A stretch of 47,963 nucleotides of DNA, from NCBI GenBank assembly GCA_019232625.1, contig JAFANP010000066.1, positions 1 to 47,963 of the forward strand. The letters are read 5' to 3'. The position numbers and the translations under genes were made by a program. The stretch comes from Alphaproteobacteria bacterium. Its GTDB lineage: Bacteria; Pseudomonadota; Alphaproteobacteria; Sphingomonadales; Sphingomonadaceae. Shown in pieces: positions 11,088 through 34,015 of the stretch. Numbering within the stretch: the stretch's first letter is position 1; each line of letters starts with the position of its first letter. A model generated the notes under the pieces. The model made no database searches and was not told where the DNA came from. It worked only from the letters and a program-made list of their open reading frames with translations.

Positions 11088-12986
11088 ATGACCGTTCCCG
11101 CTCCCCTTTTCCTTCTCCTCGCCGCCGCCGCGGCGCCCCCGCCCGAGCCGGCGCCTTCGGCCGGCCAGGCCGAGATCGTCGTCACCGGCCGCGACGACGC
11201 TGAGCCCGACCCGATGCTCACCGCCTCGGCCCCGGTCACGACGAGGCCGGGAATGGCGGAGGCGGTCGGCCTTCCGATGGTGACGGACGTGCTCCGCGTG
11301 ATCGCCGGCGCCGCGGTCTCTACGGCCGGGCCGCGGGGCAGTCAGACCCAGGTGCGGCTGCGCGGCGCGGAGGCGAACCACACCTTGCTCGTCGTCGACG
11401 GCATCCGCTTCAACGATCCCGCGGCCGGGAACGAGGCGCGGTTCGAGCTGCTCGCGACCGACCTGCTCGACCGGATCGACCTCGTCCTCGGCCCCGATTC
11501 CGCCCGCTGGGGGTCGGAGGCGATCGGCGGAGTCCTCACCGCCGAGACCCGCGACGCGCCCGACCGCGGCGCCGGTTTCCGCGGGCGCGGCGAATATGGC
11601 AGCCTCGACAGCGGCCGCGCCTCAGCCTGGGCCGGGCTCGGCACCGGCAAGGTCCGCCTCTCGGCGACGGGCGCGTGGATGGCGAGCGACGGCATCGACG
11701 CCTTCGGCCAGGGCGGCGAGCGCGACGGCTTCGACAATCGCTCGGCGGCGGCGAAGCTGGTCTTCGAGCCGGCCGAGACGGTGGAGGTCGGCGCGGTCGG
11801 CCACTGGATCGAAGGGCGCAGCGCCTATGACGGCTTCGATCCGGTGACCTTCCGGCGCGCCGACACGCTCGACGAGACGGCCAACCGCATCGGGGCGGTG
11901 CGCGGCTGGGTCCGCGGGGAGAAAAGCGGCTGGACGCTGAAGGCCGACGCGAGCCTGCTCTCGAGCGTCAACCGCAACCTCCTCGACGACGGGCCGCTCA
12001 ACAGCACCTTCGGGCGCCGCTTCACCGCAGGCGCCTCGCTCTCCAAGGCGGTGGGGGGCCACGTCCTCACCGGCGCGGTGGAGCGTCAGGCGGAGCGGTT
12101 CCGCGCCCGCGATCAGGTCTACGGCGGCGCGACGGACCAGGACCGGACCCGGGCGCTCACCGCCTTTCTGGGCGAGTGGCGCGCCAAGTGGAACGCCGTG
12201 CTCACCACGGATATCGCCGTCCGCCACGACCGGTTCAGCGCCTTCGCCGACGCGACCACACTCCGGGCCGGAATCACGGTCGAGCCGGTGGCGGGGCTCG
12301 GCCTCCTCGCCGGCTTCGCCGAGGGGATCGCTCAGCCGACCTTCTACGATCTCTACGGCTTCTTCCCCAACGCCTTCCTCGGCAATCCGGCGCTGAAGCC
12401 GGAACGCTCGACCCAGTGGCAAGGCGGGGTCACCTATCGGTGGCGCGGCAACGATGTCGGCGTCTACGCCTATGAGGCCAAGCTGCGCGACGAGATCGTC
12501 GACGTGTTCGACCCGGCGACCTTCCGCTCGACGACGGCGAACGCCACCGGAACGAGCCGGCGCCGCGGCGTCGAGGCCTATGCGAGCCTGCGCCTCGCCC
12601 GCGCCGCCATTCTGCGCCTCAGCTACGCCTTTCTCGACGCGCGGGAGCAGCAGGTGGCCGGCGGCCTCGCCGTCAAGGAGGTGCGGCGGCCGCGCCACAG
12701 CGCCGGCCTCGCCGGCTATGGCGAGGCCGGCCGGCTGTCCTGGGGGGCGACGCTCGCCTGGTCGGGACCGCGGCTCGACACGGATTTCGACTCCTTCCCG
12801 GCCCGCACCGTGAGGCTCAACGCTTACTGGCTGGGCTCGGCGCAGCTTGGGTGGCGCGTCTCAAAAAGGATCGAGGCCTATGTGAGGGCGGAGAACGCCT
12901 TCGATACGGACTATCGGGAGGTGGTCGGCTACGCCACGCCGGGAAGGACGGTCTATGCGGGCCTTCGCCTGCGCCTCGGCGATTAG
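11088..12986 (+). CDS. btuB: TonB-dependent vitamin B12 receptor
   Basis: A 632-residue outer-membrane receptor for cobalamin. A signal peptide (about 1-20) is followed by a TonB box, EIVVTG, then the plug domain ([51 protein letters not shown]) and a beta barrel with alternating aromatic strands. The chain ends LRLRLGD rather than in the usual aromatic residue. The ATG follows AAGGAGG at a good distance; the frame is open upstream through the riboswitch but has no signal peptide there. Assignment as BtuB rests mainly on the riboswitch and the btuFCD genes downstream; a related siderophore receptor is less likely. Confidence 0.9.
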
Positions 12987-25687: not shown

Positions 25688-26446
25688 TCAGGCGTCGGCG
25701 AGCGCCGCTTCGGCCGGCGGGGCGTCCATCGCGCCGATGTCCTCGCCGCGCGAGGAAGCGCCGCCCGACTTGCCGGCGAGCACCGCGTCCGCCACCGCGT
25801 CGCAATAGAGGCGGATGGCGCGGCTGGCGTCGTCGTTGCCGGGCACCGGGAAGGCGATGCCCTGCGGGCTGACGTTGGAATCGAGGATCGCGATCACCGG
25901 GATGCCGAGCACGTTGGCTTCCTTGATCGCCAGCTCTTCCTTGTTGGCGTCGATCACGAACATGATGTCCGGAAGGCCGCCCATGTCGCGGATGCCGCCG
26001 AGCGACAGCTCGAACTTGTCGCGCTCGCGGGTGAGCTGGAGGACCTCCTTCTTGGTGAGGCCGGTCGTGTCGCCCGAAAGCTGCTCCTCGAGGCTCTTGA
26101 AGCGCTTGATCGAGCCGGAGATCGTCTTCCAGTTGGTCAGCATGCCGCCGAGCCAGCGATGGTTGACGTAATGCTGGCCGGATCGGCGCGCCGCCTCGGC
26201 GATCGGCTCCTGGGCCTGGCGCTTGGTGCCGACGAACAGCACCTTGCCGCCCTGGGCGACGGTCTGGCGGACGAAGTCGAGCGCGCGCGCGAACAGCGGC
26301 ACGGTCTGGCTGAGGTCGATGATGTGGACGCCGTTGCGCTCCCCGAAGATGTAGGGCTTCATCTTCGGATTCCAGCGGTGGGTCTGGTGGCCGAAATGCG
26401 CTCCGGCCTCGAGCAATTGCTGCATGGTGACGTCGGTGGACGCCAT
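25688..26446 (-). CDS. rpsB: 30S ribosomal protein uS2
   Basis: A 252-residue S2: [66 protein letters not shown] and the C-terminal [14 protein letters not shown]. It helps bind S1 and mRNA on the small subunit. The ATG follows a GGAAGGAG site. A structured leader is listed separately. It heads the envelope and translation cluster. Confidence 0.97.
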
Positions 26447-26472
26447 GGTCTTTCTCCTTCCGGTTATGCCTC

Positions 26473-26582: not shown

Positions 26583-26613
26583 TTGACGAAGCGAACAGAA
26601 CATGAACATATTG
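26583..26613 (+). promoter_or_regulatory. LexA-type (SOS) promoter
   Basis: TTGACG at 26583-26588 serves as -35 and CATATT at 26607-26612 as -10, with 18 bases between. The spacer contains GAACAGAACATGAAC (26593-26607), that is GAAC-N7-GAAC, the complement of the GTTC-N7-GTTC LexA box used by alphaproteobacteria. LexA bound there would cover the promoter. The small membrane protein gene starts 74 bases after the -10. Confidence 0.65.
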
Positions 26614-26662
26614 TCGAAACAAGGCGATATGGATCAAAACCCGCGGCACAGCGTTCTGGGCC

Positions 26663-26671
26663 TGTGGATAA
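26663..26671 (-). promoter_or_regulatory. Perfect DnaA box (TTATCCACA on the minus strand)
   Basis: TGTGGATAA is the exact complement of the consensus DnaA box TTATCCACA. It lies in the leader of the small membrane protein gene, three bases before its AAGGGG ribosome binding site. A single box does not make an origin; it would suit DnaA-dependent control of this transcript. A nine-base match can arise by chance, so this is suggestive only. Confidence 0.4.
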
Positions 26672-26686
26672 TCAAGGGGATAAGTC

Positions 26687-26932
26687 GTGACGTACCTGGC
26701 CGCGGCGATATTTTTCACTCTCGTGCTGCTTGCCTCGATGGTTGCCCTTCACATGGAGGTGCGGCGTCACTGGGTGCAGATCGTGCTGGCGCTGCGCGGC
26801 GAGTGGCACGGCGTTCCCCACTACCGGATCGCGCCGGTGCGGCGGGTCCCCACGGTCAGGCCGTCGGTTCGCCCGGCGCCGACCCCGGCGGTGTCGATCT
26901 ACGAGCGGCTCCACCAGCTCGCAGCCTCCTGA
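26687..26932 (+). CDS. Small single-span membrane protein, probably LexA-regulated
   Basis: An 81-residue protein of unknown function. Residues about 3-22 (YLAAAIFFTLVLLASMVALH) form one membrane helix; the rest is basic and Pro/Arg-rich ([19 protein letters not shown]), then a short possible helix ([11 protein letters not shown]). The GTG start follows AAGGGG at 7 bases. The upstream region holds a LexA-type promoter and a DnaA box. The 3' end overlaps the convergent pssA gene by 77 bases. SOS-induced small membrane proteins that block division (SidA, DidA) are known in Caulobacter; this protein is longer and I cannot claim homology, only a similar design. Confidence 0.7.
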   Translation: MTYLAAAIFFTLVLLASMVALHMEVRRHWVQIVLALRGEWHGVPHYRIAPVRRVPTVRPSVRPAPTPAVSIYERLHQLAAS

Positions 26933-27674
26933 CCCGCGCATAGCTCGCGACGCTGAACGGGATCGAGGCGACGTAGAGGATCGCCGCAACGCTCAGCGTC
27001 TCCAGCGGCGCGACCGCAAGCGCCCCGCCGATCATCGCAACCGCCACGATCGCCTCCAGCCGGACGTTCCGGCGCAGCCTGAACGACGTCCAGGAGAAGG
27101 TTGCAAGGCTCGATATGGCGAGGAAGGCGACGAACGCCGCCCAGGGGGCGACCAGCCGGTAATCGTGCGTCCAGGTCCATTGCCGGTCGCTCGCCAGCCA
27201 CAGATAGAGGGGCAGCAGCATCAGCCCCGCCCCGGCGGGCGCCGGCACGCCGGTGAGAAAGCCCGCCGACTTGTGCGGCTGGTCCTCCGCGTCGATGCGG
27301 GCGTTGAACCGCGCGAGGCGCAGCGCCATGCAGACGGCGTAAGCGAGCGAAAACAGCCAGCCATAGCCCCGCGGCCAATATTGCAGGCTCCACAGGTACA
27401 TGATCACCGCCGGCGAGACCCCGAAGGCGATGTTGTCGGAGAGCGAGTCGAGCTCGGCGCCGAAGCGACTGGCGCCCTTCAGCATTCGGGCGATTCGACC
27501 GTCCATGCCGTCCAGCACCGCGGCGACGACGATCGCGGCGATCGCCTTTTCCCATTCCTCGCCGATCGCGAAGCGTATACCGGTAAGGCCCGAGCAGAGG
27601 GCGAGCGCGGTCACCGCATTGGGGACGACGGCGCGGAGCGGGATGCCGCGTCGCTCCCGCTCCTTTCCTCTCAC
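26856..27674 (-). CDS. pssA: CDP-diacylglycerol-serine O-phosphatidyltransferase
   Basis: A 272-residue inner-membrane enzyme that makes phosphatidylserine from CDP-diacylglycerol and serine. The CDP-alcohol phosphotransferase motif is complete: [20 protein letters not shown] then LSD, with Asp58, Gly59, Ala62, Arg63, Gly72, Asp76 and Asp80. Six to eight membrane spans follow. The ATG overlaps the psd stop, so psd-pssA form one unit leading to phosphatidylethanolamine. The 3' end is overlapped by the small membrane protein gene on the other strand. Confidence 0.95.
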
Positions 27675-33886: not shown

Positions 33887-34015
33887 CCCCGATCCGGGCT
33901 TCGCTCCTCGCTCCCTGAAGCGGATGGCTCCCCGGCCCGCCGAGCCGCCGCGCATCCCCCGTGACAAGCGGCCCGCCGCCTGCTAGTCGTTCCCTCTCCG
34001 TTCCTGGAGGAGGCG

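Follow-up and report, generated by a model that had tools for sequence, protein, structure and literature searches.

A small membrane protein behind a LexA-type box in the Sphingomonadaceae: probably an undescribed DNA-damage response protein and perhaps a brake on cell division

Introduction

Among the closest described counterparts of the locus reported here are the small division inhibitors of Caulobacter: SidA, a protein of 29 aa, is described as an SOS division inhibitor of Caulobacter crescentus and acts on FtsW, while DidA is described as SOS-independent, activated by DriD and acting on FtsN (PMC4211646). The consensus of Caulobacter LexA has been given as GTTCN7GTTC (PMC12700426). Contact with FtsW has also been reported for YneA, through its transmembrane (TM) domain (PMC13396833), and for the SOS gene uvrB of Escherichia coli dual control by LexA and DnaA has been reported (PMC6015884). 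The SOS-controlled small membrane protein is as such a kind already known; the division brakes of the SOS response nevertheless vary by lineage and are hard to find, being tiny and fast evolving.

In the current study we analysed a stretch of 47,963 nucleotides of sphingomonad DNA (contig JAFANP010000066.1 of assembly GCA_019232625.1), referred to below as the window, in which a first-pass annotation had proposed an SOS-induced small membrane protein behind a LexA-type promoter. Our analysis suggests that the product of this gene is probably a protein of the DNA-damage response that has not been described before, and that it may act as a brake on cell division.

Results

Organisation of the locus

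The elements on which the first-pass annotation relied, namely a TTGACG hexamer, a GAAC-N7-GAAC box and a CATATT hexamer ahead of a gene for an 81-residue single-span membrane protein, are all present (Table 1). The two hexamers are separated by a spacer of 18 bases, and the box, which was said to lie wholly within it, does so with the exception of its last base, shared with the -10-like element. The coding frame comprises 81 codons from a GTG start at 26687 to a stop at 26930-26932, and many relatives in the genus carry GGGG-containing stretches resembling AAGGGG before the start. Its distal part is overlapped by the 3' end of pssA, the window copy of which scores 94.8 bits against TIGR00473, under the cut-off of 107.

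Table 1. Features of the locus, in window coordinates
Feature	Position	Strand	Basis or remark
-35-like hexamer TTGACG	26583..26588	+	sequence read
LexA-type box GAACAGAACATGAAC (GAAC-N7-GAAC)	26593..26607	+	sequence; exact box upstream of family orthologues
-10-like hexamer CATATT	26607..26612	+	first base is the last base of the LexA-type box
DnaA-box-like TTATCCACA (TGTGGATAA on +)	26663..26671	-	24 nt upstream of start
Shine-Dalgarno-like AAGGGG	26674..26679	+	
CDS, 81 aa, single-span membrane protein with basic tail	26687..26932	+	family member
rpsB (S2), divergent neighbour	25688..26449	-	TIGR01011; context, outside the unit
pssA, convergent neighbour	26856..27674	-	ORF; best match TIGR00473 pssA; context

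LexA-type boxes in the window and in the genome

Three exact GAAC-N7-GAAC matches occur in the window where 0.81 are expected, a number that was reached in 7 of 100 shuffles; the box count within the window is not significant and alone proves nothing. The other two matches lie at 12539-12553 and 33989-34003. In the whole genome, 76 boxes stand against 29 of the reversed pattern, an excess which suggests that the genome likely has a real LexA-box regulon. Stretches carrying all 73 boxes outside the window were taken and the nearby genes inspected for 28 of them, and the genes found behind these boxes include lexA, uvrA, a TIGR03916 radical-SAM repair gene, an S24-domain gene and an ImuA-like gene, the last with 61 bits, under the NCBIfam cut-off of 150. 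Many other boxes of the genome fall within coding frames, as judged by the criterion of our script and as the chance level predicts.

Four genes of the same genome (L060:988-2001, L061:12793-13557, L080:229-1017 and L090:1-1062) have a box at or just upstream of their start. Their products, which matched nothing in NCBIfam and, above cut-off, nothing in Pfam, have N-termini that are alike by eye and that we take to be helix-turn-helix-like, and these genes may possibly form an undescribed SOS gene group. A box with the sequence GAACTTAACAGGAAC (L079:974-988) lies upstream of a proteasome-family gene, by eye probably hslV.

Conservation of the box upstream of orthologues

A protein search of 26 genomes of the genus returned 19 places in 16 genomes, and an exact box in the orientation of the gene lies approximately 90-100 nt upstream of the matched start in 16 of the 19 places. 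Those without an exact box are L015 and the divergent paralogues L018 and L019. The former (L015:1501-1692) has no LexA box and retains the DnaA-box-like leader site; the paralogues (L018:1501-1650 and L019:1501-1647) belong to two members of the genus with 6.1-Mb genomes, sit away from rpsB and pssA and end in RRKAA. Scanning the genome contigs with the single protein found no relative.

A profile search of 249 family genomes matched 46 of them at 47 places, with a single match in 45 of the 46. The box is present in all 30 of the 47 places that were given as loci (the window being one of the 30) and in nine of ten sampled from the other 17, the tenth being a matched frame that stops after three codons. 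Because the protein evolves fast, the profile search alone underestimates its distribution, and the family was counted by synteny instead.

To this end, rpsB was located in 109 of 109 Sphingomonadaceae genomes representing 91 genera, the window's included. pssA lies within 1.1 kb in 83 of these (one of them, L045, was reached via pssA and has its rpsB elsewhere). The TM ORF was picked by a Kyte-Doolittle mean over 19 residues of at least 1.6 (1.5 for loci beside pssA without a near rpsB), so that the presence of a short protein with a single TM segment in 83 of the 83 is partly a matter of construction; a second candidate ORF was found in only one. An exact box lies within 260 nt upstream of the ORF in 79 of the 83, more than one being present in 15 of these 79 promoters, and the other four have one-mismatch versions only. 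Control patterns in the same 83 regions gave far smaller numbers: 3 for the reversed motif, 1 for the opposite orientation, 4 for an inverted repeat, and 9, 8, 2 and 1 for spacings of 5, 6, 8 and 9, respectively. Among the remaining 26 genomes, three have a box and ORF near rpsB, and a search for pssA in 22 of the last 23 found it in 21, beside which 18 have an exact box and ORF (for two of the 18, L259 and L261, the start assigned by the script falls at or inside the box, so the real start must be internal).

By this synteny count, 100 of the 109 family genomes carry, in exact form and ahead of a small transmembrane ORF, the GAAC/GTTC-N7 direct repeat that marks the alphaproteobacterial LexA regulon. 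Together with the genus places, this bears out the conservation upstream of orthologues on which the first-pass annotation had made its proposal depend. Nine genomes have no exact, correctly oriented box: four have one-mismatch versions only, some of which are expected by chance, one carries its only box in the opposite orientation, two have neither a box nor a convincing ORF beside pssA, one gave no pssA match, and in the last the ORF near rpsB has no box ahead of it.

The promoter

In 64 of the 79 family promoters, TTGAC occurs no more than 16 nt ahead of the box, as against 0.87% of 6928 control windows. When the 79 promoters are aligned on the box, A has a frequency of 0.97 at +15, T of 0.57 at +16 and A of 0.53 at +17; the bases after the box (A, then mostly T and A) thus merge with the -10 element, an arrangement in which bound LexA should occlude the polymerase directly. 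The conservation of the box upstream of orthologues strongly supports the SOS-promoter reading, and the gene is almost certainly under LexA/SOS control, with regard to both LexA binding and induction.

It could be argued that the box serves the divergent rpsB gene and that the small ORF is incidental, given that 129-516 nt separate it from the start of rpsB across the 79 promoters (the distance for L045 being nominal, with rpsB outside the locus). The TTGAC element, however, is directed at the small ORF. Moreover, there is no box in that orientation at 22 of 26 rpsB loci without a near pssA (260 nt upstream being covered in L113), whereas a box and ORF lie beside pssA in 18 of 21 genomes lacking the near rpsB-pssA pairing. 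Outside the family, 138 genomes of the class have rpsB; in the 36 loci examined, which come from 35 of these genomes, neither strand held a box in the sequence up to 900 nt upstream of rpsB (less at contig ends). An operator for rpsB is on these grounds strongly disfavoured and was rejected.

Neighbouring genes and range of the unit

Named sphingomonad loci were reached through pssA and number 67. Box and ORF occur together in 41 of them, a box without the ORF in 22 and the ORF without an exact box in that orientation in three, while one is too short to judge. Carriers of both elements include Sphingomonas deserti, Sphingosinicella terrae, Sphingopyxis granuli, Sphingobium limneticum, Croceicoccus bisphenolivorans, Sphingorhabdus soli and Pacificimonas pallii. 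The Sphingopyxis granuli locus is that of strain NBRC 100800 (L329), in which the ORF adjoins pssA. The 22 loci with a box beside pssA and no TM ORF represent an apparent counter-example. Five of them were inspected: in four, an RmuC-family gene (Pfam) follows pssA with the box just upstream of it, and in the fifth, L345, an RmuC-like frame begins about 420 nt further on. The GTTC-N7-GTTC sequences that precede the RmuC-family gene in Sphingorhabdus-type genomes lie at L312:2293-2307, L331:2275-2289, L346:2281-2295 and L365:2266-2280. The notion that boxes beside pssA without a TM ORF are those of lexA was rejected, there being no lexA match among the 24 loci listed.

Twelve of the 22 Sphingorhabdus-type genomes were then chosen, of which 11 gave an rpsB match and ten had upstream sequence, and a box and small ORF were found near rpsB in nine of these ten loci, at a distance of 350-750 nt from its start, so that adjacency to pssA is not needed. 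In the reverse situation, where rpsB is not in the locus, box and ORF lie beside pssA (18 of 21). Box and ORF form the unit, which persists when either neighbour changes. Beyond the family, 16 loci from other Sphingomonadales families (pssA being present in 44 genomes of the order outside the family) had no box next to pssA, and neither had 13 named loci outside the sphingomonads.

These arrangements also bear on the proposal that the gene is SOS-induced and regulates the synthesis of the envelope or of lipids, with pssA as one possible target, acting either through its protein or through convergent, overlapping transcription. Such a role would fit with the ORF having pssA as its neighbour in 83 of 109 genomes, as well as in 18 of 21 with rpsB elsewhere, and with an ORF end beyond the matched pssA end in 73 of 83. 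In the Sphingorhabdus-type loci, however, it is rmuC that follows pssA in four of the five inspected while box and ORF are kept near rpsB, and the dN/dS below 1 described below shows that a protein product is under selection. A regulator of envelope or lipid synthesis is an improbable explanation of the locus, though one that we retain.

DnaA-box-like sites in the leader

The leader was defined as the sequence between the box and the start codon, and TTATCCACA was scored in either orientation in 79 leaders amounting to 6.3 kb. Exact copies number 21, in 19 of the 79 leaders, whereas the adjacent intergenic DNA (16.3 kb) and the coding DNA (19.8 kb) hold none; with up to one mismatch there are 48 sites in 41 leaders, and a single site in each of the two control sets. 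At two mismatches the contrast fades, with 12.0 sites per kb in leaders, 3.4 in adjacent intergenic DNA and 0.7 in coding DNA. Of the 79 leaders, 38 have no DnaA-like site even when one mismatch is allowed, and none was found in nine Sphingorhabdus-type promoters, while in the genus set 11 of 17 have an exact site and 14 of 17 one within a single mismatch. The sequence is not enriched genome-wide, given that nine exact copies in the 3.6-Mb genome, the window site among them, compare with 12 of the reversed control.

These are called DnaA-box-like for their likeness to TTATNCACA, the DnaA consensus; the window has a site of this type near the promoter (26663-26671). In the window's genus, the site keeps mostly one orientation and lies just before the ribosome-binding site, as might be expected if the element were an RNA or translation signal. 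In other genera, however, its orientation is mostly the opposite, at 33-77 nt from the start, and two leaders carry both orientations. Such variation between genera is more in keeping with a protein that binds DNA than with a signal in the RNA. Binding of the leader site by DnaA itself is somewhat more likely than not; an RNA or translation signal, or a site for another protein, is a less favoured possibility, albeit one of some weight.

The protein

Non-synonymous to synonymous ratios (dN/dS, NG86) range from 0.16 to 0.67 in 48 of 48 pairs drawn from four close groups (19 genomes in all), one pair being nearly identical and uninformative. Ratios below 1 throughout indicate a protein that is translated and under selection, and the conserved C-terminus likewise supports translation. 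The 83 family ORFs encode 52-111 aa, with a median of 81. Beside the pssA 3' end in L264 and L265, candidate members of only 38 and 35 aa, near the size of SidA, lie behind a box.

The design common to the family is a helix followed by a basic tail and a terminal Ala-Ala. AlphaFold2 predicted for the window protein a helix at residues 2-37 (means of 10-residue blocks, 87-98), followed by a tail of low confidence and, at residues 70-80, another helix of low confidence; across six sequences it returned one confident helix at 2-37 and a low-confidence tail. Net charge of the tail is positive in 81 of 83, with a median of +7, and by the positive-inside rule a basic tail marks the cytoplasmic side of the membrane. 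The tail is therefore expected, with good confidence, to be cytoplasmic and within reach of ClpXP.

A C-terminal Ala-Ala is a ClpXP-type degradation signal. It ends 74 of the 83 family ORFs, though not the window protein, which ends in LAAS; in the genome that contains the window, 10 of 103 coding-like ORFs end in this way. Its presence in most members suggests a degron, and proteolysis by way of the C-terminal Ala-Ala is somewhat more likely than not.

Mean column identity in the genus set is 41%, and in view of this high divergence a conserved partner surface is not evident. The earlier statement that the protein belongs to no known family holds: four scans of Pfam, NCBIfam and PHROGs with the window protein or the 19-member alignment gave no match at E < 0.01, the best single-member library match having E = 0.011. 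LysM was absent among the Pfam matches of the 19 genus members at E values up to 1.

Discussion

Taking promoter, leader and protein together, the following sequence of events may be envisaged. LexA bound to GAAC-N7-GAAC would cover the promoter spacer and repress the gene until DNA damage leads to LexA cleavage and frees the TTGAC-type promoter. The product would insert by its one N-terminal helix, probably N-out/C-in, with the basic, proline-containing tail in the cytoplasm, where its most likely partner would be a membrane component of the late divisome (the FtsW/FtsI/FtsN layer), such that septation would be delayed until repair is done. Once LexA recovers, the Ala-Ala-ended protein would be cleared quickly, and the DnaA-box-like site downstream of the promoter may provide a second input from the replication initiator.

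A division checkpoint is our leading guess because small damage-induced membrane proteins of known function in other lineages act on septal wall synthesis, and because the gene combines a fixed location and one match in almost every matched genome with a likely turnover signal. The best reading of the data is that of a LexA-controlled, possibly DnaA-tuned, short-lived membrane checkpoint protein with a SidA-like action, to which we would give an even chance; division arrest by a small membrane protein is, as a single component, likewise evenly balanced. The complete picture, in which one family-wide checkpoint protein is LexA-induced, DnaA-gated in many genera, divisome-acting and cleared through an Ala-Ala degron, is put forward tentatively and may well prove wrong in one or other of its parts.

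A small protein with one TM segment, a cationic tail and an SOS promoter could also be pictured as a toxin or depolariser that slows metabolism or favours persistence without blocking septation, in the manner of TisB or DinQ, the latter being described as an SOS-regulated, toxic, single-TM inner-membrane peptide (PMC3567139). The gene is nevertheless present in nearly all family genomes in a fixed neighbourhood, unlike a patchy toxin-antitoxin locus, and both the median length of 81 aa and the conserved end of the tail argue against a toxic peptide, which renders this alternative unlikely.

Beyond the first-pass annotation, the DnaA-box-like site, the Ala-Ala end and the family-wide distribution are new here, as read from sequence comparison. 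Among the literature matches listed, which covered few subscription papers, there was no sphingomonad SOS division inhibitor and no account of the locus, nor any sequence family, family-wide locus, Ala-Ala tail or layout of LexA and DnaA-like sites corresponding to the one described. In Sphingopyxis granuli TFA, SOS genes are reported to be induced in anoxia, and the small membrane gene has no mention in the available part of that account (PMC6472365). With its fixed position and conserved operator, the gene represents a candidate SOS division brake for most of a large bacterial family. The DnaA site, if working, would make a single small effector answer to DNA damage as well as to the initiation of replication; if the whole proposal is true, a single small gene reads both DNA damage and replication state and times division.

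With regard to known systems, the pairing of LexA and DnaA in uvrB concerns a repair gene, whereas in the sphingomonads it is only predicted and falls on a small membrane protein. SulA shares the SOS-induced division block and is soluble, in contrast to the sphingomonad membrane protein, while TisB is an SOS-induced single-TM peptide of an E. coli locus with an antisense RNA. SulA is furthermore described as acting on FtsZ and as not widely conserved beyond the gammaproteobacteria (PMC4211646). DinQ is likewise an SOS-induced single-TM peptide, described from an E. coli locus with an antisense RNA (PMC3567139), in contrast to a near-constant family gene in a fixed neighbourhood. YneA, ChiZ, SosA and DivS are described as SOS- or damage-induced small single-TM division inhibitors, and are in this respect alike; YneA, however, has a LysM domain, for which the sphingomonad family has no match, and the sphingomonad tail is predicted from its charge to be cytoplasmic and not outside, unlike that of the YneA group.

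It is plausible that the protein belongs to the class of division-stopping peptides represented by SidA and DidA. DidA, described as a protein of 71 aa with a single predicted TM segment and short flanking domains, is close to it in size; DidA is SOS-independent, whereas the conserved LexA-type box of the sphingomonad gene speaks against DidA-like control. SidA resembles it in being LexA-controlled, very small, inner-membrane and alphaproteobacterial (PMC4211646), and differs in that its 29 aa compare with a sphingomonad family that has a median length of 81 aa, a long basic tail that terminates in Ala-Ala in most members, and leaders of the DnaA-box-like type.
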